This document shows positions 2,014-43,375 of a stretch of 64,000 nt of DNA, in pieces (position 1 is the stretch's first letter; every line of letters begins with the position of its first letter). The DNA is from Clostridiales bacterium (GTDB lineage: Bacteria; Bacillota; Clostridia; Saccharofermentanales; Saccharofermentanaceae). The DNA is taken from assembly GCA_017554745.1 (NCBI GenBank), contig JAFZHS010000008.1:62001-126000 (forward strand). Direction: 5' to 3'. A model generated the notes under the pieces. That model saw only the letters and a list, made by a program, of their open reading frames with translations, ran no database searches and was not told where the DNA came from. Both the position numbers and the translations under genes were made by a program.

Positions 2014-2802
2014 ATGAATAAGATTTTCGCGCAGGTCCGGGAATACATGCTCAAGGCGTTGGAGGAGAAACTCCCTTCGGTTAAGAAGTCCGATCTGGAG
2101 AAGGATGGTGCCGTCTTTTATATGAACGGCAAGAACGGCACTGAGTTTGACTGGTATGTCAATGACCATCTGCCGTGCTTCTTCATCTTTTACAATGACA
2201 AAGAGAACCTGGGTGCTGTTAAGGCCACGCTCTATACCGACGGCGGCCTGAGCGTCTATGTGTATGGCGACAGGGGACACGCCGATCCTGTCGAAATGAA
2301 TTTTACGATTGAATCAGGTGAGAAGGAGCTCATTAATCTTGCTGTTCTTCTTGCGAAAAATGCAGACGGCAAAAAGATCTGGGATGACGATATTCTTAAG
2401 CTCGATTGTGAAGGGGTTCCTGACGAAGAAGCTATAAAGGTATTTCTTTCTCTCAAAGATGCCTTTGAACCGATGGTAGAGCGTAAGAATATGATGGGAC
2501 AGATCGTTATGGTCTCGAAGAAGGTGCGCGAAGGCGGTTTTAAGATCGGTTACGGAATTCGTGACGAGCCTGTGAATGAAGGCGACAGCGGATGGTTCTT
2601 CAGCGTGGGCGATGAGACAGACGAATACATTAACGATACTGATAACATTGAGATATGGTCGGTTAATTCCGCTCTGATGTATGAACCTGCTCTCATGGAG
2701 TTTATTACGGAGCCTTACGGCACGGCTATCGTGCGTGTCTCTCCGGATAAGTTCGAACCGGATGAACCCGGCAAAAAGATCTTCATTGAAAAGAAAAAAT
2801 AA
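2014..2802 (+). CDS. Uncharacterised protein with C-terminal DUF2185-like domain
   Basis: 262 residues, acidic, no signal peptide or membrane segment. The last ~95 residues match the look of DUF2185 (an Imm33-like fold): VSKKV, then a GYGIRDEP stretch, NEGDSGWFFSVGDE, DNIEIW and a PYGTAIVR ending. The N-terminal half is unfamiliar. Such domains occur alone in many Firmicutes and some relatives act as immunity proteins, but no toxin gene is adjacent. The gene is preceded by AAGGAA and follows the GDPD gene closely, so they may be cotranscribed. Function unknown; the domain call is from memory of the family pattern. Confidence 0.65.
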   Translation: MNKIFAQVREYMLKALEEKLPSVKKSDLEKDGAVFYMNGKNGTEFDWYVNDHLPCFFIFYNDKENLGAVKATLYTDGGLSVYVYGDRGHADPVEMNFTIESGEKELINLAVLLAKNADGKKIWDDDILKLDCEGVPDEEAIKVFLSLKDAFEPMVERKNMMGQIVMVSKKVREGGFKIGYGIRDEPVNEGDSGWFFSVGDETDEYINDTDNIEIWSVNSALMYEPALMEFITEPYGTAIVRVSPDKFEPDEPGKKIFIEKKK

Positions 2803-2847
2803 CTTTACCGGGATATATGTCCCGGAACGAACAAAGGGGGTAACAAC

Positions 2848-4080
2848 ATGCGCGAACAGTCTTTTATGATAGTGATCCCGAAGGATGAGAATGTGATCAA
2901 TGATCCCAAGGGCTTTATTGATAATCTGGTTGCTTCTGAGCATATCAAGATCAAGAACTGCGAAATGGAAGAAGAGCGCGGCCTGGTGATCGATCTGGAA
3001 GTCGACGGCAAGCCTCATCAGATAAACGTCCTTCCTACGGATGTTGAGGTCCCGCCGCTCGTCCGTCCCGAGCATGTCTTTACCGAAGAAGAGTATCAGC
3101 TGATTGATGAGGCCAAATCCGGCATCGTAGTTAATATGATGTTTGACGAGGATAACGCGCGGTGTTTCCACGACCAGTTGAGGATCATTAATGCGATGTT
3201 CCCTGAGACTTTGGCTGTTCTTGACTGCCCTGCCGAGAAGCTCCTCTCGGGAAGATGGGTAGCTCTGGCTGCCGAGTCGGACACGCTGCCTTCCCCCAGA
3301 TATCTTTTTACCGTACAGGCGATCTCCGGCGATAACGATGAAGTCTGGCTCCATTCGCACGGCCTTAAGAGATGCGGAATGTATGAGCTTGAGATACTTT
3401 GCTCTGACAGCGAAATGTGCAATGAGCACTACAGGATCATTGAGTCTTTTGCTTTCCAGATGATCGAGAATGAGAAAGCCTTTGAGCCGGGTGAAGCTGT
3501 TTTCGTGGCACACATAAACAGATCTTATGTGGTATGCACGGCCGTTGACTGGAAGGAAGCTCTGAAGTTCTATCCTGAGGCTACCCTCGGAACGGAAGAA
3601 GACAGGGATGATGACGTCCACGGCGAAGATACCTATGTGCTCATGATGTACAACAACCCCGATGCAGAGAAGGCAAAACAATACAGCAAGATCCAGCTTA
3701 TCAACCCGCATCTTAAGAATAATCCGATGTTCCTGTTCTCCAATTCCGAGACGGAGAGGATGAAGAGCCTTGCCATAGAGCGCATTCCCTACATGAAGAA
3801 GGGCTTTGAGAACAAGGACAACAATGTGATCGTAAAGATCGGTCTTGTCACGGATAAGGAGTACTGGAAGGATGACAAGCCCCAGAGGGAACATATCTGG
3901 TTTGAGCTTAAGGAAGTCAGGGAAGACAGTATCGTAGCCGAACTGACCCAGGAACCGTATTACGTGTCCGGAATCAAGGAAGGCGATACAGGCACTTATC
4001 CGTTCTCTGACATCACGGATTGGCTCATCTATACCAAGGACGGCAACATAACGCCCGACGACGCGTACAGGCTTATCTGA
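2848..4080 (+). CDS. DUF4026/DUF2314-like protein
   Basis: 410 residues, soluble, very acidic. The final ~90 residues (EHIWFELKEV...LTQEPYYVSGIKEGD...DITDWLIY) resemble DUF2314, a domain often seen in stand-alone cytoplasmic proteins of unknown role; the larger N-terminal part resembles DUF4026. A strong ribosome site (AAAGGGGGT) sets the start at 2848. It sits 45 bases after the DUF2185-like gene on the same strand, and both have small-domain immunity-like C termini, hinting at a shared but unknown role. No catalytic motif can be pointed to. Confidence 0.6.
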   Translation: MREQSFMIVIPKDENVINDPKGFIDNLVASEHIKIKNCEMEEERGLVIDLEVDGKPHQINVLPTDVEVPPLVRPEHVFTEEEYQLIDEAKSGIVVNMMFDEDNARCFHDQLRIINAMFPETLAVLDCPAEKLLSGRWVALAAESDTLPSPRYLFTVQAISGDNDEVWLHSHGLKRCGMYELEILCSDSEMCNEHYRIIESFAFQMIENEKAFEPGEAVFVAHINRSYVVCTAVDWKEALKFYPEATLGTEEDRDDDVHGEDTYVLMMYNNPDAEKAKQYSKIQLINPHLKNNPMFLFSNSETERMKSLAIERIPYMKKGFENKDNNVIVKIGLVTDKEYWKDDKPQREHIWFELKEVREDSIVAELTQEPYYVSGIKEGDTGTYPFSDITDWLIYTKDGNITPDDAYRLI

Positions 4081-4169: not shown

Positions 4170-5786
4170 ATGACAATTGAACAACTTTATGCAGGAATGG
4201 ATCCTCAGGAATTCTACATCGGAAAGGTAACGCAGGTTTACAGAAGTTCCTGTATTGCCCAGATCGATAATCTCACCCTGATGTCAGACAGAAGCAGATT
4301 TAATAAGTCTTTCCTTCCTAATACCATCAACTATTTCGTAATCGTTGACTCGGTCGTAGGTCTGTTCCTCGGAGAAGTATTCGAGAACAAGGCTTCAAGA
4401 AAGAGCATCTACGAGATGTCATCCGGCACGACAAAGTCCAATGACTATCAGGAGATCTGCATCGATACCATCTCTCTCATGCCGACAGAAGCTAATAAGT
4501 TCCAGCTCGCCGGCTTCAATACTCTCGGTATCACCGATAAGGTCTACCTCGCTACTGATGAAGTCTATAAGCTGTTCCTTCAGTCTCTCGAGTTCACGGG
4601 AGAAGATGAAGAACCGCTTCCTCCTTTTGCTACATATCTCAACAAGTCCCAGGCTGAGGTATCCCTCAAGCCCAGCACGCTCTTCAACCGTCACCTTATG
4701 TGCATCGGTGCTACGAACAGCGGTAAGTCCACAACAGCACTCGCTATCCTTGATAAGGTAGTCTCCACAAGACGTAAGGCACTTATCATCGACCCTACAG
4801 GCGAGTACAGGAATGCATTCACTAACGATGAGATCACAAAGCTTACACTTGGTGTAGATACAACAGTATCTCCCGGTAAGATCTCCATGGAGCAGTGGGA
4901 GAAGCTTTTCGAGACTGAGAACAGTTCACAGGGCGCTGTCCTTTCGGAGGCTATTACATCCCTGCGTTACATGAAGAAGATCGGCGAGTCCACATACTAC
5001 AACAAGGTAGGTGAGGACATCGAAGAGGTCCAGGAGAATATTGCTTCAGTAGGCAAGGACGATGTAGACTTCAACATCGAGCTTCTTCCTGAGCAGATCC
5101 AGGCTGAGTCAGTCTGCGAGCCTGACAGAGACAACAATTACAACTTCAAGTACCGTTACGATACTTTGAGAGCAAACCTCAATTCTTCTCTCGTTCAGAA
5201 GATCCAGTATCAGATGACAAATACGAAGTTCCTGTCATTCTTCTCTAATGATCCGAGCATGTATAACCTCCTGGATGTAATCGAAGAATTCATTCATCTT
5301 CCGGAAGAGAGCCTTTATATCGATACATCGCAACTCGGTGCATCTGAAGGTATCGGCGGCATGATCATTGACCTTGTAAGTACTTTCGTAATGTCCAGAG
5401 AAGACATCAAGCCGTTCGTATTCTTCATCGATGAGGTACACAGATATGCTAAGTCCAGATATTCCGACAAGGACTATCACGGCGGCCTTACACTCCTTGC
5501 AAGAGAAGGACGTAAGAAGGGTATCTTCCTTTACCTGACAACACAGAACCCGAAGGACGTATCTCCTATCCTCTTCGGTCAGATCGGTACGATGCTCATC
5601 CACAGACTCATGCTCAACGATGAGATCAAAGCCGTTGAGAGCCACCTTGACGATTACGCCATCAAGCACGTCAGAAAGCTCAACCAGGGTGAAGTTATCC
5701 TTACGAGCGTTAACCTCCTGCACAACATGTTCATCCATGTTAACAAGAGCCCGAGAACACAGTTCAACGAGACACCTCAGCTGTAA
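4170..5786 (+). CDS. HerA-type P-loop ATPase (DUF87/HAS-barrel)
   Basis: 538 residues. An N-terminal HAS-barrel-like region (about 15-150) precedes a hexameric translocase ATPase core: Walker A GATNSGKST (180-187 region), Walker B FVFFIDEVH (416-424), and the HerA-type TTQNPKDV...FGQIGT stretch after it. Family members are DNA-pumping ATPases that usually work with the nuclease NurA in end resection, or with other nucleases in phage defence. No NurA, SIR2 or DUF4297 gene is beside it; it has its own promoter and terminator, so it appears to be a single-gene unit. The start is fixed by GCAGGAGG. Annotated as HerA-like; partner unknown. Confidence 0.85.
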   Translation: MTIEQLYAGMDPQEFYIGKVTQVYRSSCIAQIDNLTLMSDRSRFNKSFLPNTINYFVIVDSVVGLFLGEVFENKASRKSIYEMSSGTTKSNDYQEICIDTISLMPTEANKFQLAGFNTLGITDKVYLATDEVYKLFLQSLEFTGEDEEPLPPFATYLNKSQAEVSLKPSTLFNRHLMCIGATNSGKSTTALAILDKVVSTRRKALIIDPTGEYRNAFTNDEITKLTLGVDTTVSPGKISMEQWEKLFETENSSQGAVLSEAITSLRYMKKIGESTYYNKVGEDIEEVQENIASVGKDDVDFNIELLPEQIQAESVCEPDRDNNYNFKYRYDTLRANLNSSLVQKIQYQMTNTKFLSFFSNDPSMYNLLDVIEEFIHLPEESLYIDTSQLGASEGIGGMIIDLVSTFVMSREDIKPFVFFIDEVHRYAKSRYSDKDYHGGLTLLAREGRKKGIFLYLTTQNPKDVSPILFGQIGTMLIHRLMLNDEIKAVESHLDDYAIKHVRKLNQGEVILTSVNLLHNMFIHVNKSPRTQFNETPQL

Positions 5787-5813
5787 GACAGTTCTCACAT
5801 CACGAAAAGAATC

Positions 5814-5843
5814 AGGCCCCGGAGAGAATTTCCGGGGCCTTTT
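5814..5843 (+). terminator. Rho-independent terminator
   Basis: Ten-base-pair stem AGGCCCCGGA / TCCGGGGCCT with a seven-base loop and a TTTT tail, just after the HerA-like gene. It also lies beyond the end of the convergent TetR gene and may serve both. Confidence 0.88.
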
Positions 5844-5846
5844 GTG

Positions 5847-6401
5847 TTATTCGTCTATTTGGGCCTCATAGGCTTTTTTGCAAAGATTGAATAGAAGTTT
5901 TGCAAGTTCGTGCGTCTCAAGATCAAATCCGTTGTCTATCCATTTGGAGATAACACTGCCGCAGCCGAAGGTTATGAACTTATATGCATATGGATTCTCG
6001 ATCCGGTTTGCTAAAACAGGCAGCTTACTCTTCATGTCGTCCAGCATGTTTTTGAAGATCTTTGTTTTTGTCTCGTAATCCAGATTGCTGCTCATAAGAG
6101 TTTTGTAGATCTTAGCATTATCCTTTATGTATTCCAGATGTTTACACAGGATATCTATATCATCTCCGGTACCTGTCACTGATGAAAAATGTTCTGCAGT
6201 ATCCATCTCGAGTTTTGAGACTATGTCTTTGAGTAGTTGGGTCTGATCGGTGTAATGAAGATAAAAAGTAGTGCGGTTCAGATCCGCCTGTTCACATATT
6301 TCTTTAACGGTTATCTTATGGAAAGGCTTTTCCTGCATAAGCTCAATAAGCGCTGTTCTGAACAGGAGCTTAGTCATTTCTGTTCTTCTTGTTGCAGCCA
6401 T
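5847..6401 (-). CDS. TetR/AcrR family regulator
   Basis: About 184 residues. The N-terminal helix-turn-helix is typical (ITVKEICEQADLNRTTFYLHY), preceded by a helix with FHKITV. The C-terminal half carries the Firmicute-type ligand region ending FITFGCGSVISKWIDNG. A frame extends eight codons upstream, but GGGAG nine bases before the ATG at 6401 makes MAATRRTEM the likely start. It is single, minus strand, and preceded by a promoter with a palindromic operator (see 6480-6528), so autorepression is likely. Its target gene is not obvious; the divergent side has no close gene. Confidence 0.85.
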   Translation of the reverse strand: MAATRRTEMTKLLFRTALIELMQEKPFHKITVKEICEQADLNRTTFYLHYTDQTQLLKDIVSKLEMDTAEHFSSVTGTGDDIDILCKHLEYIKDNAKIYKTLMSSNLDYETKTKIFKNMLDDMKSKLPVLANRIENPYAYKFITFGCGSVISKWIDNGFDLETHELAKLLFNLCKKAYEAQIDE

Positions 6402-6479
6402 AGTATTATCTCCCAATATAGACAATTAGACACGATATGTCGATTTTGCAACGAAAACACATAAACTGCGTATTGTTAA

Positions 6480-6528
6480 ATCAACACTGTGTCGATAAAA
6501 TCTTATTAGATGTTACAGACAAGGTCAA
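6480..6528 (-). promoter_or_regulatory. Promoter and palindromic operator of the TetR gene
   Basis: On the minus strand TTGACC (6528-6523), 17 bases, TAAGAT (6505-6500). Immediately downstream, at 6480-6496, is ATCAACACTGTGTCGAT, an inverted repeat with one mismatch, covering the expected transcription start. A related half-site (GACACGATATGTCGA) lies at 6431-6445. Confidence 0.6.
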
Positions 6529-6588
6529 TAAATTTGCCTGATTCTGTAACGATTTATATGTCAGGGATAATACCTGTATAAAGTTTTA

Positions 6589-6632
6589 CAAAGCCCCCTT
6601 CTCACTTCTCTCCAAATCGTGAGGGGGCTTTG
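6589..6632 (-). terminator. Terminator hairpin
   Basis: CAAAGCCCCC pairs with GGGGGCTTTG, with an inner CTCAC/GTGAG stem and a TT bulge. It is placed after the minus-strand membrane protein gene (6680-7450). U-runs are weak on both sides. Confidence 0.7.
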
Positions 6633-6679
6633 TTATTGCTGATTTGGCGGTTTTACAAGCGGTAGTGAAGTTCAAATAA

Positions 6680-7450
6680 TTATTTTTTCTTGTCGGCCTT
6701 TTTAATTCTGACAGTTACCGGTTTGATGTCGTTTTGGGACTTTTTCTTTTTGCGGTCTTTTAAGTTATCGATGAATCTTTCCACGTATTCCTGAACGAAA
6801 AAATGGAAGAATGCCCATGCCATAGCTCCGAAGCATCCCTCTACTGCGATCATGGCAATTATATTGGTGATGACGTCTATGCCGCAAAAGATATCGTGCC
6901 AATAGGAGATGAAAGCAAAAACCATTATAGCAATGCATCCCAGACTCAGGAGGGTGAAGATGATCGGTGTCGCTATGTATTCAAACTTCCAATACCGTTT
7001 CTGATTAGCCCAGAAGTAAGCGAGGAAAGCGTAAATGATTGTCCATCCTATAAAGAACCCAAACATCCAGTCCATATTGTGTGTAACAGGCAGAATGATG
7101 ACGAAGAAAAGACCGAACAAGGAACTGAAAATAAAGAGTCCCAAGATAAAGTAATATTGGAATGGCAGTATGCCCTTGTGAGGACGCAATATTTTTTTCT
7201 TCCTTTTAGCGCCATTTTTCTGTGACTGCTTTGTCACCACATCGATGAAATATGCTGTAGCGTCATCTTCTTTGTCGAAGATCTTCTGACCTACTTTCTG
7301 GGAGTTTTCGCAGTAGAAATACTCCCACGTGCCGTCCTGACGTTGAAGCAGATTATGGCAGCCGTCGTAAGAGACGCTTCCACCTATGTTTATGTTGCTG
7401 TCGTCGATGCCGAGCCGCTCGAGCTCTTTTTTAAGCTTTCTAGTCTTCAT
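6680..7450 (-). CDS. Membrane protein with small N-terminal cytoplasmic domain
   Basis: 256 residues. An ~80-residue N-terminal domain (pattern DGTWEYFYCEN..K.GQKIFDKEDDATAYF) precedes four hydrophobic helices (about 100-125, 133-157, 162-188, 196-225) and a lysine-rich tail. The N-terminal pattern resembles a short module found at the start of various Firmicute membrane or immunity-type proteins, but I cannot name it. GGGG eight bases before ATG supports the start. It stands alone between a terminator and the divergent GH27 gene. Function unknown. Confidence 0.7.
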   Translation of the reverse strand: MKTRKLKKELERLGIDDSNINIGGSVSYDGCHNLLQRQDGTWEYFYCENSQKVGQKIFDKEDDATAYFIDVVTKQSQKNGAKRKKKILRPHKGILPFQYYFILGLFIFSSLFGLFFVIILPVTHNMDWMFGFFIGWTIIYAFLAYFWANQKRYWKFEYIATPIIFTLLSLGCIAIMVFAFISYWHDIFCGIDVITNIIAMIAVEGCFGAMAWAFFHFFVQEYVERFIDNLKDRKKKKSQNDIKPVTVRIKKADKKK

Positions 7451-7542
7451 TGTTCTATTACCCCGCTAATATGTTAGCACAAACGCTTTATGTCTGCTCT
7501 TATGTTAGAATGCATTTATTAAAGTTTTTCGCCCGGGTATGA

Positions 7543-9777
7543 ATGATGGAACAGATCGTAGTTTATAATGAATCGCTCAAGGAAAGTGTTTACAAATTTA
7601 CGGATAAATGCTTTCTTGAGATAGGCAAAACATTTGAGCCTGACGGCAGGCATTCGTTTTATAACGACATCGAAAAAGAGTTCGACCGTTTCTGGTGTCT
7701 GCTCACAGATGAAAAAGTCACCGGCACTGTCGGGATAAGGAAAGAGGACGATACTACAGCAGAGCTTAAAGCCATGTATCTTTCCAAAGAACTGCGCGGA
7801 AAAGGATACGGGTATAAGCTTCTTGATCTGGCCATGACTTATTCCAAAGAGAAGGGTTACAAGCGTGTCGTGCTTGATTCGATGTCAAAATACGAAGCAG
7901 CGTTAAAGCTTTATGAGAAATACGGATTCAAGAGGATCGACAGATATAATGACAATCAAAAAGCAGATGTGTTTATGGAATATGTTTTCGAGCCGGTTAT
8001 GGACAGACCTGCAATAATCACTGACGACAGATACAGATTTGATTCTTTCGATAATGGTGAACCGCTTCCTTGCAGAGGCCCCAAAAGGCTTCCTGCGATG
8101 GGCTGGAACAGCTGGAATCCTTTCGGAAGCAACAACAATGAAGAGCTTACAAGAGCGCAGGCAGATAAGATCATTGAGCTTGGCCTTGATAAGTTCGGCT
8201 ACAAGTATGTTGTTTTAGATGACGGCTGCTACAGCTTTCAGAGAGTTAACGGCAAGCTTGTTAATCACGAAGAGAGATTCCCCGGCGGCCTTAAGTCAAT
8301 ATCAGATTATATTCACGGCAAGGGATTGAAGTTCGGAATGTATAACGACATCGGCACTAATCTTTGCGGCGGAGCTGCTGTCGGGACGCACGGTCACGAG
8401 AAGGAAGATGCGGAGTCTTACCGCGAATGGGACATCGATTATATCAAGGTCGATAACTGTTATTACATGTGGGACAACGCGACCTTTGCGGATCCTGAGA
8501 ATGCAAAATATTCCTATGCCCCGAACATTAAGAGTATAAAGGTCACAGGTCCTGATTTTGAAGCAATCCTGGACCCTGAAGATGTAACGGTCTCAGGTAT
8601 GAGAGCGCAGATAAAAGACGGCTATATAACTGCTATCGGTACGTTTGACGGCACAGCTCCAGATAACACGCCTATAGGCCTTCAGAGTTCGGAGGTCAGC
8701 TTTGATCTTGCTGTCCCGTGCGAAGGCGATTATAAGATCTCAGTTAACTATGCGACGGGAAAAGAAGAGGGCATCGGTCAGTGGCTTCAGATAAGAACTG
8801 AACAAGAAAAGACAGGCAAACTGACTTTTGATGACATGCTTCCCGAGACGGAATCACCTACAGATTTCAAATGGTCTGACGGTATCGATATAAAGCTTCA
8901 CGAGGGCGTTAACAATATCCGCCTGATGAATCACAGAAGGCAGGAAAATACGCTGGTGTCTTATGCGACTTTGCTTGAAGAGATAAGAAAAGCAATGCCT
9001 GATAAGGACATCGTCTATTCAATCTGCGAATGGGGCAAGACCATGCCTTCTGACTGGGGCTACAAGGTAGGTGACAGCTGGAGAATACTGAACGATATCA
9101 CTTTTGCAGTAGGCTCTCCTGAGGGCGATTACGGCACCGGTCAATGGTTTGATAAATACACGAACAGCATCACGTCACAGTACAACAAGTGCGTTATCAT
9201 GGATGAGTTCGCGTCTCTTGATAGAGGCTGGAACGACCCTGATATGCTCATGATCGGCATGAACGGCTTAACTCCCGCAATGAACCGCACTCACATGTCG
9301 ATGTGGTGCATGATGAATTCCCCACTGATGCTCGGTCTTGACTTAAGAAGAGTCGAAAAGGGTGACGATATCTACAAACTCATAACTAATGAGTATCTTA
9401 TCGGTATCGATCAGGATCCTTTGGGCATCCAGGCGAAGAGAATATTCACAACATATCCCTGCGAAGATCCTTCCAAGGAATATATCCGGGATATCAACAG
9501 GGTAGACGTGCTCGCCAAGCCTCTGTCCGGCGGCAGGCTGGCAGTCGCGATCTATAATCTGTCAGATGAGATCGCGGAGGAAGATATCAATCTTGATCTG
9601 GACTATATTGCAGAGAAATTGGGTGATAAATTCCCCTCTGAACTCAAGGAAATCCGGAATCTTAAGGAGATAAACGTGTGGAACGGCGATTCTGCGACCG
9701 TCTCGCACAGGATCCTCGAAAAGCCCGTGATCATTGAACCTTACGGCAATGTAACATTGTTACTTGAGGGTATTTGA
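7543..9777 (+). CDS. GNAT acetyltransferase fused to GH27 alpha-galactosidase
   Basis: 744 residues in one frame. Residues 1-150 form a GNAT domain with the acetyl-CoA loop (LRGKGYGYKLL) and the closing YEKYGFKRI. Residues ~180-744 are a GH27 (melibiase) barrel: PAMGWNSWNPFG, DDGCYS, nucleophile D304 in DYIKVDNC, acid/base D518 in SWRILNDIT. Between strands, residues ~325-475 hold an inserted beta-rich segment resembling a carbohydrate-binding module. There is no signal peptide, so it should hydrolyse terminal alpha-galactosides in the cytoplasm. The Met near residue 153 has no ribosome site, arguing for true fusion. The acetyltransferase substrate is unknown. Confidence 0.87.
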   Translation: MMEQIVVYNESLKESVYKFTDKCFLEIGKTFEPDGRHSFYNDIEKEFDRFWCLLTDEKVTGTVGIRKEDDTTAELKAMYLSKELRGKGYGYKLLDLAMTYSKEKGYKRVVLDSMSKYEAALKLYEKYGFKRIDRYNDNQKADVFMEYVFEPVMDRPAIITDDRYRFDSFDNGEPLPCRGPKRLPAMGWNSWNPFGSNNNEELTRAQADKIIELGLDKFGYKYVVLDDGCYSFQRVNGKLVNHEERFPGGLKSISDYIHGKGLKFGMYNDIGTNLCGGAAVGTHGHEKEDAESYREWDIDYIKVDNCYYMWDNATFADPENAKYSYAPNIKSIKVTGPDFEAILDPEDVTVSGMRAQIKDGYITAIGTFDGTAPDNTPIGLQSSEVSFDLAVPCEGDYKISVNYATGKEEGIGQWLQIRTEQEKTGKLTFDDMLPETESPTDFKWSDGIDIKLHEGVNNIRLMNHRRQENTLVSYATLLEEIRKAMPDKDIVYSICEWGKTMPSDWGYKVGDSWRILNDITFAVGSPEGDYGTGQWFDKYTNSITSQYNKCVIMDEFASLDRGWNDPDMLMIGMNGLTPAMNRTHMSMWCMMNSPLMLGLDLRRVEKGDDIYKLITNEYLIGIDQDPLGIQAKRIFTTYPCEDPSKEYIRDINRVDVLAKPLSGGRLAVAIYNLSDEIAEEDINLDLDYIAEKLGDKFPSELKEIRNLKEINVWNGDSATVSHRILEKPVIIEPYGNVTLLLEGI

Positions 9778-33705: not shown

Positions 33706-35253
33706 TTATTCCTCAGGCTTCAGTGTCAGCGCGGTCTTGGACACATCGAGCCAGGTTTTCAGGCTCGTAGTCCTGACGTAAAGACTGCTGACTATTACCG
33801 TGTAAGGGTGAATAGCGTCATTCGATCCCGGAGCGGGCGCGACGTATGTGCCTGTGGCGCTTATAACGTAAGGAATGCCGTCGACTGTGCCAAGATAGAT
33901 CGTCATGTGGCCGGGGAAGGATATAAGGCTTCCGGGCGCGAGATCCTTTATCACGGCAAGTTTCTCATCAGTAGACATATTGCTCATATCGACCTTGTAG
34001 ATCCCTTTGGAATCAGACTGGCCGACGCGCGGCAGGAGAACGCCGAAGCAGCGGTAGATCTCTCTTGTGATGCCCGTGCAGTCGTTGGCTCTTAAGTCGC
34101 CGCCCCATCCGTATCTGTCGCCGAGGAGCTTAAATGCCTGCCTTACTACGTTTGCGGGCGTAAGAGGCAGGTAGCCGATCGTGACATTATCTGATATCGG
34201 GATCAAAGTGTATTCATCCTTGATATAGCCGTCCGAGCCTCTGGTGGGGACCTTAACAATATAGTTGCCGTATGTTGAGCGCTTGTTGATGACGGAAGGC
34301 GCTTCGGATACGGGTATCAATTCCATTTTCGTGCCCATGGGAAGGACAAGATCTCTTAAGGATTCGGCATAAGGATCATCGCCGAGCCTGATCTCTCTTG
34401 CGGTGACAGTAAGCCAGTTCGCAGGGTTTTGTCTGGCGGTCCATTCCTTGCGGTCTTTGCACAGTGCGACGGCATCTTTTCTTACCCACGCTGCGTAGCT
34501 GTCGAAAGAGACATAAAGGTATTCGCCGTCAAGGCTCTCGTGCAGTACGACGAGGGGCATGTAAGGCATGCACTCGGCGTAGAGCATATAGTCGAACAAC
34601 TCGTTTGAATTATTCTTGATAACGCGGTCTTCGGTAGGGAAAAGCCTTAAGGTCATTCGCTTTACGGAAAAACCGAACCGCACTTCGACTTTGTCTCCTA
34701 CGCCACCGATGTTGGAGAGCTCAATCAGTTTGTCCCAATATTCTTGTGTGGTCTTGCTGCCGTTGAGATAGTATTCCGACGGATCATCGGGAGCCATGCC
34801 CGCATTCTCGTTCAGAAAAGCTTTGAGGATATCTCCGTCCAATGTGTCTTCAAACTCATCGAAATAAGGCATCTGCACGCCGTCGCCGGTCTTCTGGTGG
34901 ACTCGGTTTGCGTAATTGAATGCCGCGATCTGGTCTGCATCCATCAATATCTCGTTATCTTCTTCGCTGATCCAGTAATCAGCATTCATCATCTGGGGAT
35001 CGACGCCTTCAACGATGCGTACAAAGTCAGTATCGGCAAGGCTGGTTGTAGTGCTCGGTTCTGTTATGAAATCAACTGAGGTCGTCTCAGTGGTGGTTTC
35101 AGTTGATGTGGCAGGCGGTTCCGTGGCAGGCGTTTCTGAGGCATGCGGGTTTGTGCTGATGCTCTCGGCACCGCCCGAACTGCACGCGCATAGAGACGCT
35201 GCCAGAGCAGCTGAGAGAATTAAAGAAGTTGTTCTATATCTGAAAGTAGCCAT
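33706..35253 (-). CDS. SH3-NlpC/P60 cell-wall peptidase lipoprotein
   Basis: 515 residues. Signal peptide with lipobox SLCAC (Cys near 22-24), a Thr/Glu-rich linker, SH3-like segments in the middle (EYLYVSFDSYAAWVRKDAV; KMELIPVSEAP) and a C-terminal NlpC/P60 domain: catalytic Cys in RANDCTGIT, His in FPGHMTIYLG. Such enzymes cut stem peptides of peptidoglycan outside the cell. A GGGGAG ribosome site supports the start. Divergent from the PEBP lipoprotein; the shared upstream region has a 21-bp-spaced direct repeat. Confidence 0.9.
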   Translation of the reverse strand: MATFRYRTTSLILSAALAASLCACSSGGAESISTNPHASETPATEPPATSTETTTETTSVDFITEPSTTTSLADTDFVRIVEGVDPQMMNADYWISEEDNEILMDADQIAAFNYANRVHQKTGDGVQMPYFDEFEDTLDGDILKAFLNENAGMAPDDPSEYYLNGSKTTQEYWDKLIELSNIGGVGDKVEVRFGFSVKRMTLRLFPTEDRVIKNNSNELFDYMLYAECMPYMPLVVLHESLDGEYLYVSFDSYAAWVRKDAVALCKDRKEWTARQNPANWLTVTAREIRLGDDPYAESLRDLVLPMGTKMELIPVSEAPSVINKRSTYGNYIVKVPTRGSDGYIKDEYTLIPISDNVTIGYLPLTPANVVRQAFKLLGDRYGWGGDLRANDCTGITREIYRCFGVLLPRVGQSDSKGIYKVDMSNMSTDEKLAVIKDLAPGSLISFPGHMTIYLGTVDGIPYVISATGTYVAPAPGSNDAIHPYTVIVSSLYVRTTSLKTWLDVSKTALTLKPEE

Positions 35254-36237: not shown

Positions 36238-37548
36238 ATGTTTTATAACAAGGATAATCCTCAATGGAAGTTCAATGAGGACCAGTACCTCAGCAACGAT
36301 GATTATTACGGCATGGTAGAGGAATACGATGAACTCTGCAAGTCGATGCTGAGGGCTGATTTCCGCGACATCAACGAGAAATTCTACGGCGTCAAGGAGA
36401 CTTACACTTCCGAAGAAGACAGAGAACGCAAAAGAAAAAAGCTGCTGATCGGCGGAATCTGCGCTGCGGTAATATTCGCAGGGCTTGTATTAGCACTGAT
36501 GTTTAAGCAGATCCTGATCTTCGGATACGCAATGTGTGCGATCTTCCTGCTTGCCGGTATATCGATAATGGTTTCCGGCAAAGGCGAGGTCGTCGAGTCG
36601 ACCAGCAAAGCAATCTTTAACAGAGTCCTGGGATTTTGCATAACATTCGCTTCCGTGCTGATAATTCTATTGATGCTGTTCAGGACAAAGATGGAGGGAG
36701 GAGAGTTTTTCCTTCTGCTGGGCGTTGTTGTTTTCGGAATAACCGGATTGGCGATTCTGGTAATAGCGGTCATGAAGGCAATGTCGGGCAAGATCGTATA
36801 CACCGAAGAAGTCAATGCTACATGCGCCGGATACGTCCGCTATGTCAGCCACGATTCCGGAGATCATGGCAACAGATTTACGTTTATCCACACATCACCG
36901 TTGTTCAAATATTCTTACGGCGGAGTACAGTATGAAGCTGTCTATGATGACTTCATAGTAAAGAAGGATTCGGATGTTGCCCTCGGCCAGAGCGTGAACA
37001 TCAGGGTCGATCCCAAGCATCCCGAGAACATCCAGTCTGCTGCAACGACACATAAGGGCGGCATCGCTTTCATGATCATCATGGGCCTTATAAGCTTGGG
37101 TGTCGCAGTATTTCTGGCCGTCTACGTCTTCGGCGGCAATGCTAAGACCATGACAGTCGAGACTCAGTGGAATACTCCGATAAATATGGGCGACGGAGAA
37201 GGGGAGACTGCAGCTGAGACTACGCTCAGGCAGATTACCGATGAAATGATCGAAGAGGCTTATGCCGACCAGTTGAAAGGTGAGAAGTGGTATATCGAGA
37301 CGACGACCATTAAGTATACGCACACTCCGGCAGATTCAGACGTCATTGAGCTCTATTTCTCCGACGATACTTTCGTCCGCGGCCTTACTAAAGATGATAC
37401 ACTGAAGCCGGGCACAGAGCTGATACTGTTTTATACTGTTGACGAAGAGTACAAGGAAGACGATCAGCCGTATAAGTTTGTTTTCTCATTCGGCAGGCCT
37501 GATGAATTTGAGTATGTCGGCTCACACTCGGCATATGTAAGCAATTAA
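36238..37548 (+). CDS. DUF3592-like multi-helix membrane protein
   Basis: 436 residues from ATG 36238 (GGGAGGG upstream; the TTG 24 bases earlier is unlikely). Four hydrophobic helices between about 70 and 185, a soluble beta-domain (SPLFKYSYGGVQYEAVYDDF, then VDPKHPENIQ) of DUF3592 type, a fifth helix, and an extracellular acidic tail of about 115 residues. A TATAAT lies near 36203-36208. Role unknown. Upstream of the Cys-Ala-tail membrane protein by 37 bases. Confidence 0.75.
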   Translation: MFYNKDNPQWKFNEDQYLSNDDYYGMVEEYDELCKSMLRADFRDINEKFYGVKETYTSEEDRERKRKKLLIGGICAAVIFAGLVLALMFKQILIFGYAMCAIFLLAGISIMVSGKGEVVESTSKAIFNRVLGFCITFASVLIILLMLFRTKMEGGEFFLLLGVVVFGITGLAILVIAVMKAMSGKIVYTEEVNATCAGYVRYVSHDSGDHGNRFTFIHTSPLFKYSYGGVQYEAVYDDFIVKKDSDVALGQSVNIRVDPKHPENIQSAATTHKGGIAFMIIMGLISLGVAVFLAVYVFGGNAKTMTVETQWNTPINMGDGEGETAAETTLRQITDEMIEEAYADQLKGEKWYIETTTIKYTHTPADSDVIELYFSDDTFVRGLTKDDTLKPGTELILFYTVDEEYKEDDQPYKFVFSFGRPDEFEYVGSHSAYVSN

Positions 37549-37585: not shown

Positions 37586-38539
37586 ATGACTAGGGTATGT
37601 ACAAAGATAATGGCTGCACTGGCTGCGCTTCTCGTGGCTGCTTCAGTTTTACTTATGCTGCCCCGCAAGACCGAAGCTCTGCAGGTCTACTACGATAAGA
37701 TTCATTACTTTGGCATTGAAGCTAATTTGCTTGATAACGGTGCCGTTGAGTTCACTTATACGATTGACTGGGAAGTTATTGTTGATGTTGTTGACGAGCC
37801 ATTCAAATGGGTCAAGATAGGTATTCCTAATTCTAATGCGCATAAGTTCAAAGCGCTGACGGATAATATCAAGTCGGTTAAATACATGAGTGATTATGGC
37901 AGTTTTGCAAAGGTCAAGTTCCGTAAAACTTACCATGCGGGAGACATCATTCATTTTAGTTTCTCATTCGTTCAAGAGAATCTTTTTGAGACGCCTGACC
38001 TCTACGGAAACGGCGGAGTCTGGTCGGGCCTTTATGTCTATGACTACACTCCGGGTTGGTTTGATGAGATTCCGGTCGAGAAATATGAGATCAAGTGGAA
38101 CGTCGCTAATGTCGTCAAGTACACCAACAACGCTCGCGTTGAGGGCCAGTATCTGGTCTGTACCGGATCTTTGAAAGCCGGCGAAAAAGCCAATATAGTG
38201 GTCGGGTACAAACCCGGGTCTTACAGTTTTCAATATAAGGATGTATCTCATTTTTGGACCGATCTGGGAGCTCTCATTGAAGGTGGCGGACCTGTTTTAT
38301 TTGCAATAATTGTTATGTTTGTTCTTACCCGTGTTTCTGACAAATATGAAGGCCATTCCGGCGGATATCACGGTCATTTCCACGGCGGTCATGGAGGCGG
38401 TTGTGCATGTGCATGCGCATGCGCTTGTGCTTGTGCCGGCGGCGGCCGTGCGGGCTGCACGAAAAAGGACTTTTACGGGACCAAGGTCTCTACCATGAGA
38501 ATCAGAAAGATCCTGAAGGACGGTGCCGAAGATGTTTAA
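37586..38539 (+). CDS. Membrane protein with extracellular domain and cytoplasmic Cys-Ala repeat tail
   Basis: 317 residues. Signal peptide (1-32), extracellular domain resembling DUF2207-type beta domains (LLDNGAVEFTYTIDWEVIV), one membrane helix (about 234-250), then a cytoplasmic tail: a Gly/His stretch (GHSGGYHGHFHGGHGGG) followed by six Cys-Ala pairs (273-284), GGGRAGC and a charged end. The Cys-Ala codons alternate tgt/tgc and gca/gct, so this is not simple DNA slippage. The stop overlaps the radical SAM start by eight bases. I infer that the tail is the substrate of that enzyme or a metal-binding site. Confidence 0.8.
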   Translation: MTRVCTKIMAALAALLVAASVLLMLPRKTEALQVYYDKIHYFGIEANLLDNGAVEFTYTIDWEVIVDVVDEPFKWVKIGIPNSNAHKFKALTDNIKSVKYMSDYGSFAKVKFRKTYHAGDIIHFSFSFVQENLFETPDLYGNGGVWSGLYVYDYTPGWFDEIPVEKYEIKWNVANVVKYTNNARVEGQYLVCTGSLKAGEKANIVVGYKPGSYSFQYKDVSHFWTDLGALIEGGGPVLFAIIVMFVLTRVSDKYEGHSGGYHGHFHGGHGGGCACACACACACAGGGRAGCTKKDFYGTKVSTMRIRKILKDGAEDV

Positions 38540-39887
38540 ACAAAAGCTGTATGAGTTAGCCAACTGGAAACAGGTGATCCATACGACCTGGAATCCTGAC
38601 GGCCCCGGCGTCATCAGAATGCACATGATCCCGCCCAAGTTCACGCCCTTCAAGCTCGCCCAGACGATGGTCATCATCAACGGCTCTGAGATACTGCCGA
38701 TCAATGAATCTGGCGCGATCCTCCTGACCGAATACGTCAAGAACGTCAACGAATTTGGCGAAGGTGCCATGACCGACGAGGACCTTGAGAAAATAATCCA
38801 TAAGACATTCCGCGGTGTAAAGAACGTTTTCCCGTTCGTAAAGGATCAGGTGCTCAAAGATGACCTCAACTATTACATCGATCTTTTCGAAGCAATCGCG
38901 AAAGGCGAAGCTGTAGAGACTGACTATCCCGGCATGACGATCGGCGAATATGCCCGCTTCATGAGCGCGCCTCACAGGATGGACCTTCTCGTCTCATCCA
39001 TGTCCAAGGACGGCCATTGGAACTGCAATCAGAAGTGCGTCCACTGCTACGCTGCAGACCAGAAATGCGCTGAAGAAAAAGAGCTAACGACCGAAGAATG
39101 GAAGAAGATAATCGGGATCCTCCGCAAGGAGAAGGTCTCGCAGATCACCTTCACGGGCGGCGAGCCTACCATTCGCGAAGATATCCCCGAGCTCATCAAG
39201 GAAGGCCGCTGGTTCATCACGCGCCTTAACACGAACGGCGTAAGGCTCACGGAAGATTACTGCCGCCGCCTGCGCGAAGCCGAGCTTGATAATCTGCAGG
39301 TCACTTTCTATTCCTGCGATGAGGAGATCCACAACAGGCTTGTAGGCGCGCCCAACTATCAGAAGACGCTTACCGGCATTAAGAACGCAATCGCCGCAGG
39401 CATCAACATGAGCATCAATACGCCTATCTGCAGGCTTAATAAGGATTACAAGAAGACTTTGGAATTCCTGCACGATCTGGGCATCATATATGTGACCTGT
39501 TCAGGCCTTATCCTTACCGGCAATGCCAAAGGCGAAGAGTCTGAAGAACTCCGTATCGAAGGCGAAGAACTTTATGAATCTCTTCGTGAAGCAGTTGAGT
39601 ATGCATATTCACACGACATGGAGATCAGCTTTACTTCTCCCGGCCTGATCAGCCAGGAAAAGCTTGTTGAGATGGGTCTTGATGTGCCTTCGTGCGGAGC
39701 GTGCCTGAGTAACATGGCGATCACGCCGTCAGGCAATGTTGTCCCTTGCCAGAGCTGGCTCTCAGATGAGCCCCTCGGAAATATCCTTAAAGATAAGTGG
39801 AAGACCATCTGGAATGGTCCGCACTGCAAAGAAATAAGGTTGAATTCATCTAAAGAAACACAGAACTGCCAATTAAGAAATAAATGA
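38532..39887 (+). CDS. Radical SAM/SPASM peptide-modifying enzyme
   Basis: 451 residues from ATG 38532, which has AAGGA at a usable distance; a GTG nine bases earlier sits too close to it. An ~155-residue N-terminal domain of unclear fold precedes the radical SAM barrel: CNQKCVHC (C-x3-C-x2-C), TFTGGEPT and TRLNTNGVRL. The C-terminal SPASM region has CGACLSNMAITPSGNVVPCQ and LGNILKDKWKTIW, ending NCQLRNK; the last Cys-rich part is shorter than usual. SPASM enzymes typically modify peptides through extra Fe-S clusters. The eight-base overlap with the Cys-Ala-tail protein argues for a substrate-enzyme pair. Confidence 0.85.
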   Translation: MFKQKLYELANWKQVIHTTWNPDGPGVIRMHMIPPKFTPFKLAQTMVIINGSEILPINESGAILLTEYVKNVNEFGEGAMTDEDLEKIIHKTFRGVKNVFPFVKDQVLKDDLNYYIDLFEAIAKGEAVETDYPGMTIGEYARFMSAPHRMDLLVSSMSKDGHWNCNQKCVHCYAADQKCAEEKELTTEEWKKIIGILRKEKVSQITFTGGEPTIREDIPELIKEGRWFITRLNTNGVRLTEDYCRRLREAELDNLQVTFYSCDEEIHNRLVGAPNYQKTLTGIKNAIAAGINMSINTPICRLNKDYKKTLEFLHDLGIIYVTCSGLILTGNAKGEESEELRIEGEELYESLREAVEYAYSHDMEISFTSPGLISQEKLVEMGLDVPSCGACLSNMAITPSGNVVPCQSWLSDEPLGNILKDKWKTIWNGPHCKEIRLNSSKETQNCQLRNK

Positions 39888-41609: not shown

Positions 41610-41636
41610 TTGCATTTTCTGAAATTGTGATATACT
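41610..41636 (+). promoter_or_regulatory. Promoter of first FecR gene
   Basis: TTGCAT (41610-41615), 15 bases, TATACT (41631-41636) with an extended TGA in front of the -10. The ribosome site AGAAGGG is at 41662-41668. Confidence 0.5.
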
Positions 41637-41677
41637 TATCAGGTTTGTCAAAGCACAAACCAGAAGGGTTGTATCCT

Positions 41678-43375
41678 ATGGCTTTGATTAACGTTTTCAA
41701 GAATCTTTCCAAGAAAACTAAGATAATTATGGCTGTTGCCGCGGTGGCTGTTATTGCCGGTGCCGTGACATTAGTCGTGCTGGGCCGTAGCGGTTACACT
41801 GCCACGACAATGAGACTTCTCAGAGTCGAGGGAACGGTCAATATCGAAGATTCAAAGGGCGGCACCAAGCCCGTTATAGATAAGATCAGATTCCAGTCCG
41901 GAGATGCATTGAATACAGGCAATGACGGCCTTGCTTCAGTAGGCTTGGATGATACAAAGATCGTTACTCTCCAGACAGACAGCCGAGTTGAATTTCAAAA
42001 GCAAAATAAGAAGCTTGAGTTAAAGCTTACGAAGGGCGCGCTGTTTTTCGAAGTAATGGAGCACCTTAAGGACGATGAGACTTATGAGATCCACACATCG
42101 AACATGACCGTAGGTATCAGAGGTACCTCAGGTTATGTCTATTACGATGAGAGTGATAAGAGAGAATCGCTCGTAGTTACTGACGGTATTGTTGAAGTAT
42201 CAGCGACGAATCCCGTTACAGGTGAGACAAAAACCGCCCGGGTTGAAGGCGGCAAGCAGATAAAAGTTTACCTCTATTCCGACAGGACGGAAGATACTGT
42301 CGAGTTCGAGCTTAGCGATGTCTCTGAAGAGAGCCTCCCCGAATTCCCTCTTCAGAGACTCGCCGAGAACGAAGAACTTCTCGACCGAGTCTGTGAGTTC
42401 ACGGGCTGGGATAAGGAAAAACTCCTGGATGTCATTAATGATGCTATCGAAGAAGAAAATAAAGAAGAAATAACTCCTACAGCCACTCCTACTGAGGAGG
42501 CTACTCCTACACCTGAACCTGTCGGTGGAACGCCTGAAGGCCCCTCTGCACCGACTATAACGCCGCCGGTTTCCATAACGCCGACGGCAAAGCCAACAGG
42601 CGCACCGACGGGTTCAGTAACATCAGCTCCGTCTGCAAGACCTACAACAACCGCAGCACCGACACCTTCGTCTGCGCCTACCACAACACCGACAGCTATG
42701 CCGACGTCATCGGCTACGCCTACGGCAACTCCTACCGCAACCGCTACTGCTACGGCGACGGCGACTCCTACTGCTACACCCACTGTGAAGGCAACGCCTA
42801 CCCCGAAGCCGGGATGTGAGATTACGGATTATGCCTGGGATGTTGAATATGAGGGTACGACTGTTTTCGTTTGCCAGAACGTTTCCGGCGATGATTACCT
42901 GTACTACGGCTATATTGACGGAAACTGGGTAGAGCTTGAGCAGCAGGCTTTTGCCGGCAATGGCTGGTGCTATGTATATTTCAAGGACAAAGCGACCGGT
43001 GAAAACTACTATGACGGTTACATGTATAAATATGAAGTTGTAATGCCGACTGTACCGCCTGAGAATACTCCGACATCTACGCCGACTCCTGCAGCACCGA
43101 ACTTCAATTGTGTCCCTTCTGATTCAGATATCCTTGAAGGCCACGAAAAGGCCGGTAACTGGGGCACTATGTGCGACGGCCATCCTGTCTACATAATCTT
43201 TATTAAGGAACCCACGGAAAACAACGGATATAGTTACACTGACTATCGCGCATATGTTAATTATGAATGGGTCAAGCTTTATGGCGCTTCAGCTGGCGAT
43301 ATTCTTGCCGGCAATACTCCTTATAATTTCTACATAATGAACGGCGAAGAGAAGGTTGTGTATTTCCACAATTAA
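41678..43375 (+). CDS. FecR-domain surface protein 1 with TP-rich linker
   Basis: 565 residues from ATG 41678 (AGAAGGG nine bases upstream). One N-terminal membrane helix (about 13-35) anchors the protein; an extracytoplasmic FecR domain follows (about 40-205: [54 protein letters not shown]). Next is a Thr/Pro/Ala linker (about 265-390), then two C-terminal aromatic modules (YAWDVEYEGTTVFV...YYGYIDGNWVEL). FecR domains read DNA- or ligand-linked surface signals in other systems; no TonB partner exists in Gram-positives, so its role here is unknown. Confidence 0.82.
   Translation: MALINVFKNLSKKTKIIMAVAAVAVIAGAVTLVVLGRSGYTATTMRLLRVEGTVNIEDSKGGTKPVIDKIRFQSGDALNTGNDGLASVGLDDTKIVTLQTDSRVEFQKQNKKLELKLTKGALFFEVMEHLKDDETYEIHTSNMTVGIRGTSGYVYYDESDKRESLVVTDGIVEVSATNPVTGETKTARVEGGKQIKVYLYSDRTEDTVEFELSDVSEESLPEFPLQRLAENEELLDRVCEFTGWDKEKLLDVINDAIEEENKEEITPTATPTEEATPTPEPVGGTPEGPSAPTITPPVSITPTAKPTGAPTGSVTSAPSARPTTTAAPTPSSAPTTTPTAMPTSSATPTATPTATATATATATPTATPTVKATPTPKPGCEITDYAWDVEYEGTTVFVCQNVSGDDYLYYGYIDGNWVELEQQAFAGNGWCYVYFKDKATGENYYDGYMYKYEVVMPTVPPENTPTSTPTPAAPNFNCVPSDSDILEGHEKAGNWGTMCDGHPVYIIFIKEPTENNGYSYTDYRAYVNYEWVKLYGASAGDILAGNTPYNFYIMNGEEKVVYFHN

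Follow-up and report, generated by a model that had tools for sequence, protein, structure and literature searches.

The window analyzed here, a stretch of 64,000 nucleotides from a Clostridiales bacterium (contig JAFZHS010000008.1), carries two overlapping genes on its forward strand. The ORF at 37586-38539 encodes a membrane protein of 317 aa that ends in GGGCACACACACACAGGGRAGCTKKDFYGTKVSTMRIRKILKDGAEDV, with the layout (CA)6-GGGRAGC-TKKDFY. The second gene encodes a radical SAM enzyme. Its ATG lies at 38532 and the stop codon of the tail protein ends at 38539, giving an 8-nt gene overlap. A sequence-only reading of this DNA had already pointed out the eight-base overlap as well as six Cys-Ala pairs followed by GGGRAGC, and the ORF matches the latter exactly. 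The features of both genes are collected in Table 1.

Table 1. Features of the tail protein gene and the radical SAM enzyme gene (positions in the window)
Feature	Positions	Strand	Basis
Candidate substrate gene, 317 aa: signal peptide, ectodomain, single TM, C-terminal Cys-Ala tail	37586..38539	+	ORF, hydropathy, AlphaFold model
N-terminal signal peptide (hydrophobic aa 1-29, ...RKTEA), predicted	37586..37678	+	Hydropathy; signal-like N-termini in relatives
Extracytoplasmic beta ectodomain, DUF2207-N-like, predicted	37679..38251	+	DUF2207 matches among relatives; model
TM helix, aa 223-250, predicted	38252..38335	+	AlphaFold model and hydropathy
His/Gly-rich cytosolic linker, aa 253-272, low conservation	38342..38401	+	Identity comparison among relatives
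(CA)6 Cys-Ala repeat, aa 273-284; most conserved part of the protein	38402..38437	+	
GGGRAGCTKKDFY motif, aa 285-297	38438..38476	+	42 of 42 distinct tails have RAGC with Lys at Cys+3
Basic C-terminal helix, aa 303-316 in model; possible recognition follower	38477..38536	+	Model
Radical SAM / Twitch-like (truncated SPASM) enzyme, 451 aa	38532..39887	+	Pfam, motif, model
N-terminal RRE-like (PqqD-like) domain, four strands then three helices, predicted	38577..38900	+	Predicted model
CX3CX2C radical SAM cluster motif CNQKCVHC	39024..39047	+	Invariant in 25 homologues
Twitch-like auxiliary cluster region: C387, C390-X9-G-X4-C405, C431, C445	39693..39869	+	450-aa model numbering

Performing hydropathy analysis, we find two hydrophobic segments in the tail protein, a signal-like one at aa 1-29 and a TM segment at aa 226-252, and the same two segments occur in all 32 of the 32 relatives. 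The AlphaFold model shows a helix at aa 223-250 and a disordered tail. Given a signal-like segment, one TM helix, and a disordered tail, the expected topology places the Cys-Ala tail in the cytosol. The earlier claim of a single-pass membrane protein with its tail inside thus agrees with hydropathy and model, as a prediction. In some Lachnospiraceae and Coriobacteriia proteins (L026, L028, L029, L030, and L034), a zinc-ribbon-like CPGCG...CPYCG insert lies between the TM helix and the tail, which fits the cytosolic location.

From alignment and model, the ectodomain folds into a domain whose core residues are conserved, and structural comparison of the AlphaFold model shows a fold like that of ribophorin I and the M1 aminopeptidase N-domain. 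The Pfam DUF2207 (PF09972) N-terminal domain matched 10 of the 29 relatives of the tail protein at E ≤ 1, weakly (best 1.5e-4), and in the same search the 317-aa protein itself gave no DUF2207 match. The tail protein falls in no named family in Pfam, NCBIfam, or PDB.

Both the Radical_SAM (84.5 bits) and the SPASM (40.1 bits) Pfam matches of the enzyme lie above the cut-off, and its cluster Cys residues are conserved in 25 homologues. The sequence-only reading had described a SPASM enzyme with the motif CNQKCVHC. The CX3CX2C motif and the SPASM match stand, but the seven-cysteine SPASM motif is there in its first half only: CX9GX4C and then two Cys, with no CX2CX5CX3C. As the SPASM match covers just this first half, we predict a single auxiliary cluster like that of Twitch enzymes, and "Twitch-like" is a more exact label than full SPASM.

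In the AlphaFold model of the enzyme (pLDDT 83.5), four strands and three helices stand ahead of the radical SAM barrel. Using Foldseek and VIA-align, we found the sactisynthase SkfB (Z 23.0, model residues 27-442) and the peptide cyclase SuiB (Z 22.2, residues 16-450) as the nearest solved structures; the epimerase EpeE is also among the VIA-align neighbors. The alignments with SkfB and SuiB extend over the N-terminal domain and gain some 60-95 residues over those with the RRE-less relatives, which align with the model from about residue 140 onward. We predict from the model that this domain is RRE-like; profile searches with it gave no PqqD/RRE sequence match. In NCBIfam, the enzyme reached no curated radical SAM family cut-off (best NirJ2, 99.8 bits against a cut-off of 500). 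Its sactisynthase scores were 59 bits (StsB) and 57 bits (SkfB), and by sequence it is no closer to the sactisynthases than to NirJ2, AhbD, MoaA, or PqqE. Being far below every curated cut-off, the enzyme forms a separate subfamily. As judged by sequence, neither gene belongs to a named family of the libraries searched.

We compared the parts of the tail protein among its relatives. The mean pairwise identity was 0.96 for the repeat and 0.82 for the following motif, compared with 0.37 for the ectodomain, 0.33 for the linker, 0.32 for the C-terminal helix (putative docking), and 0.18 for the TM segment. Over the 13 codons of the repeat and motif, 31 distinct DNA sequences showed 7.4 synonymous and 0.4 nonsynonymous codon differences per pair. 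This mostly synonymous drift indicates that the tail is selected at the protein level and is not a slippage-prone DNA repeat. The tail was found in 56 distinct sequences, and the reversed tail pattern, searched as a control, gave zero matches in every genome set; together with the synonymous drift, these results rule out a chance low-complexity ORF. A transferable tag on unrelated proteins is likewise excluded, as all tail proteins found belong to one ectodomain family, within which the linker and the zinc-ribbon insertions vary.

The 42 distinct tails follow a strict grammar. Their repeat units are CA (190), CASS (27), CAHSS (10), CVHSS (6), and rarer forms, and the Cys count of the repeat region varies from 3 to 9. 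Directly after the repeat Cys there is Ala (277) or Val (7) and nothing else (284/284). At Cys+3, Ala, Ser, or Gly is found in 282 of 284 cases, a rule that is broken twice and is partly forced by the repeat itself, so that we take the +3 spacing as a lead and not as proof. Such small residues look like part of the chemistry, since a plain metal-thiolate site would not need these neighbors. The motif after the repeat has the general form G-R-A-G-C-[ST]-x-K-[DNE]-F. The last motif RAGC is present in 42/42 tails and its Cys+3 is Lys in 42/42, with +2 free to vary; as RAGC was the search anchor, only the Lys and the flanking positions count as independent observations. The repeat Cys residues are near-absolutely conserved, with one Cys to Tyr change seen: it lies in the second substrate of a tandem pair (L056 1680-2612 and L090 7759-8709, genome G001; CACACAYACACA).

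To see how the two genes are distributed, we scanned one genome per species and obtained 25 loci with enzyme relatives. They come mostly from rumen and gut, and their hosts are Saccharofermentans-like bacteria, Lachnospiraceae, other Clostridia, one Coriobacteriia, and one Bacilli record. At every locus with a complete neighbor gene, except L040, the tail protein adjoins the enzyme. The exception (4956-6257) is an enzyme relative without its last residues in a genome that has no tail protein at all, likely a decaying copy; apart from it, no tail-less enzyme was present in the genomes searched.

In the genus, the tail pattern, the enzyme (E ≤ 1e-50), and the ectodomain profile, the last searched in 83 of the 85 genomes, match the same 17 of 85 genomes with none discordant. 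In the Lachnospiraceae-like family, tail and enzyme occur in the same 22 of 250 genomes. The two sets combined give tail and enzyme together in 39 of 335 genomes and only one of them in 0 of 335, counts that are not independent of phylogeny. The 20 new tail loci of the Lachnospiraceae-like family all carry the same ectodomain family and have the enzyme alongside, save the second of two tandem substrates, which the enzyme does not adjoin. A 398-genome sample of the phylum showed the tail in the source genome alone. The two-gene system is patchy and rare outside some families. The sequence-only reading had suggested a search for such tails next to radical SAM genes in other Clostridia, and had held that tails commonly lacking this neighbor would speak against a link. 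The pairs recur in Saccharofermentans-like bacteria, Lachnospiraceae, and other Clostridia, and we looked for orphan tails in the genomes searched and found none.

The order of the genes is substrate-enzyme in the Saccharofermentans-like and Bacilli loci and enzyme-substrate elsewhere; their adjacency is constant. One genome (G505) holds two complete paralogous tail-enzyme pairs. Performing a mirror-tree analysis, we find that ectodomain and enzyme distances correlate with r = 0.87, which 0 of 2000 permutations reached. The tail protein and the enzyme are the only genes common to 24 loci, and across these loci there was no co-conserved exporter, protease, immunity, regulator, metal transporter, or short peptide gene.

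Third components were considered as well. The upstream gene (36238-37548) and the flanking lipoprotein genes were rejected, being common to the two nearest relatives only. The nearest relatives alone likewise share a neighboring lipoprotein with SH3 and NlpC/P60 domains (33706-35253) and a FecR-domain protein that contains long Pro/Thr repeats and has a related ORF after it (41627-43375). A mobile carrier was rejected too, with no plasmid match and only distant radical SAM matches in viral contigs. A human faeces record named "Bacteriophage sp." (L107, MT837216.1, 2440-5087) has the enzyme (44.5% identity) and the tail protein among long ORFs and is probably a mislabeled bacterial fragment.

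Three other loci deserve mention. In one genome (G018), the cassette is split at contig ends (C191/C192) within the Cys-Ala repeat, so short-read assemblies may break there and hide pairs. The L033 operon (6340-8995) contains the enzyme, a tailed protein, a tail-less paralogue, and a third tailed paralogue with a GGGGGG-interrupted repeat (CACACACAGGGGGGCACA), and may serve as a natural test of the requirements of the enzyme. The second cassette of G505 (L113) sits beside ORFs that look by eye like a small secreted TPM-like membrane protein and an ECF-like sigma factor (700-1332, 2469-3008).

From these sequence comparisons, a radical enzyme is paired with a Cys-Ala-tailed membrane protein in some rumen and gut bacteria and very probably modifies the tail inside the cell. 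The sequence-only reading had proposed that the target of the enzyme is a full-size membrane protein rather than a secreted peptide. Perfect co-occurrence and adjacency, the correlated distances, and the lack of a co-conserved exporter, protease, or short peptide gene strongly support this proposal, and action of the enzyme on the tail is to us highly likely. That the modification takes place at or through the Cys residues seems likely. For thioether cross-links specifically, we would claim slightly less than an even chance. As a whole, we lean toward two genes dedicated to modifying an integral membrane protein in its cytosolic tail, probably by Cys thioether cross-links.

From established biology, the enzyme is cytosolic and oxygen-sensitive. 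The C-terminal tail of a type I membrane protein lies in the cytosol, within reach of such an enzyme, and a signal peptide at the N terminus cannot double as a leader. In the mechanism that we propose, the first gene would give a type I membrane protein with a signal peptide, a DUF2207-like ectodomain outside the cell, a single TM helix, and a cytosolic CA/CASS/CAHSS tail that is disordered. The second would give a cytosolic enzyme in which an RRE-like domain at the N terminus precedes a radical SAM barrel and a Twitch-like domain with a single auxiliary cluster. As the N terminus is an export signal and unable to serve as a leader, we infer that the tail itself would be recognized, probably via the RAGCSxKDF motif with the C-terminal helix as a follower. 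The enzyme would then work along the repeat processively, and each Cys sulfur would be joined to a carbon of a nearby small residue, either Ala at +1 or the residue at +3. The +3 partners would be Ala, Ser, or Gly inside the repeat and Lys for the last Cys, comparable to streptosactin with its CX2S and CX2G rings. The result would be a rigid, thiol-poor tail still tethered in the membrane.

We favor thioethers since Cys is abundant in the substrate, a sactisynthase is the closest enzyme with a solved structure, and the documented sactionine acceptors include Ala, Arg, Lys, Ser, and Gly, with rings from Cys to +3 in streptosactin (PMC8172795). Sactisynthases combine an RRE, a radical SAM domain, and SPASM/Twitch (PMC6231123). 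AlbA rejects an Ala acceptor in its own substrate (PMC8172795), which counts against the proposed mechanism. More tentatively, and as the less probable extension, a leaderless radical SAM/RRE enzyme under C-terminal guidance might turn the tail into a chain of small Cys-derived rings (Cys to +1 or +3, with a final Cys-to-Lys ring). This would be an undescribed modification class, a RiPP-type polymer on a membrane sensor or surface protein.

The strict Ala/Val after every repeat Cys (284/284), stricter than the spacing, also suits another kind of change to the tail, in which the unit is CA because Ala is attacked: epimerization of the Ala Calpha, C-C or C-N cross-links, desaturation, or Cys oxidation. 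EpeE and SuiB among the VIA-align neighbors point the same way, and SPASM/Twitch enzymes catalyze many reactions (PMC8326336, PMC9062424). However, near-absolute Cys conservation means that Cys must matter for the product, and plain epimerization needs no Cys; we regard such a change as unlikely.

Less likely again is that the tail forms a metal or Fe-S thiolate site that the enzyme builds or loads, or that its thiols ligate the auxiliary cluster of the enzyme, as a leader Cys of CteA does for CteB (PMC6231123). Alternating Cys next to a His/Gly-rich linker in the source group and the Zn-ribbon-like CPxCG...CxYCG motif in Lachnospiraceae linkers are consistent with it. Yet the His-rich linker is not kept outside the genus, no metal transporter or regulator is co-conserved, and a metal site leaves both the Ala/Val after each Cys and the fixed Lys at RAGC+3 unexplained.

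The variable number of repeat Cys (3-9) recalls RiPP cores, and cleavage of the modified tail could yield a sactipeptide-like product that is released or exported, with the membrane protein as an oversized precursor. We find this improbable, as no protease, transporter, or immunity gene is co-conserved, the whole protein including ectodomain and TM is inherited with the enzyme, and the ectodomain is folded with conserved core residues. Equally improbable is a tail that merely anchors the enzyme at the membrane for some other substrate molecule: a scaffold would also give constant pairing, and the C-terminal helix with the RAGCSxKDF motif could bind the RRE, but docking needs no 3-9 Cys in strict CA units, and identity is far higher in the tail (0.96) than in the helix that would dock (0.32).

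Most of what is known of radical SAM/SPASM chemistry comes from short secreted peptides, with few whole-protein cases. If modification of the Cys-Ala tail is true, a strictly paired, leaderless membrane-tail system would bring membrane proteins into the range of RiPP-type chemistry and raise the new question of what use a cross-linked cytosolic tail is to a surface protein. The regular CA/CASS/CAHSS repeat should make the chemistry readable from one mass-spectrometry experiment, and it would suit the engineering of repeat cyclization.

We compared the pair with known systems. The sactipeptide systems (SkfA/SkfB; AlbA, CteB, RumMC, and streptosactin GggB) have the enzyme domain order that the model suggests here (RRE-like, radical SAM, and SPASM/Twitch), with a Cys-containing substrate likewise encoded next door, and SkfB, the top structural neighbor, has the Twitch-type single auxiliary cluster predicted here. 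In contrast to their short leader and core, the candidate substrate here is an integral membrane protein of 307-480 aa with a Sec signal and a CA-unit repeat, there is no exporter or protease, and recognition would necessarily come from the tail or C-terminal side. The pair would operate much as a sactipeptide or QhpD system does, but we do not file it as a sactipeptide because the short leader-core precursor, a defining feature, is absent. A full protein is thioether cross-linked by the SPASM enzyme QhpD, whose substrate QhpC is the gamma subunit of quinohemoprotein amine dehydrogenase (PMC8172795); unlike the tail protein, QhpC does not figure in that paper as a membrane protein carrying a low-complexity tail, and its cross-links lie within the subunit.

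The His-Xaa-Ser system (HxsA/HxsB/HxsC) and other repeat-motif systems (TVGG, Asp-Cys; PMC9062424) also join a radical SAM enzyme to a repeat-bearing substrate, but the repeat and the enzyme family differ here. That survey includes a peptide in which the Asp-Cys pair recurs up to six times, and it describes no Cys-Ala repeat (PMC9062424). In the open literature, we found no description of a Cys-Ala repeat partner of a radical SAM enzyme; subscription papers such as the 2022 JACS radical SAM RiPP atlas may mention one. DUF2207 membrane proteins may resemble the ectodomain through the weak matches of 10 of the 29 relatives, and the CA-repeat tail is not part of DUF2207.

By analogy of layout, the nearest analogue is the TIGR04222 membrane proteins with MNIO enzymes (PMC12452194), in which a large membrane protein, its C-terminal tail disordered, Cys-containing, and of low complexity, is encoded beside a modifying metalloenzyme as its proposed substrate. 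None of the substrate proteins matched TIGR04222, and their conserved neighbor is a radical SAM enzyme, not an MNIO. The TIGR04222 tail is Ser/Gly-rich, predicted to be extracytoplasmic, and loosely linked to its MNIO enzyme, whereas the Cys-Ala tail is predicted to be cytosolic and is strictly linked to a radical SAM enzyme.
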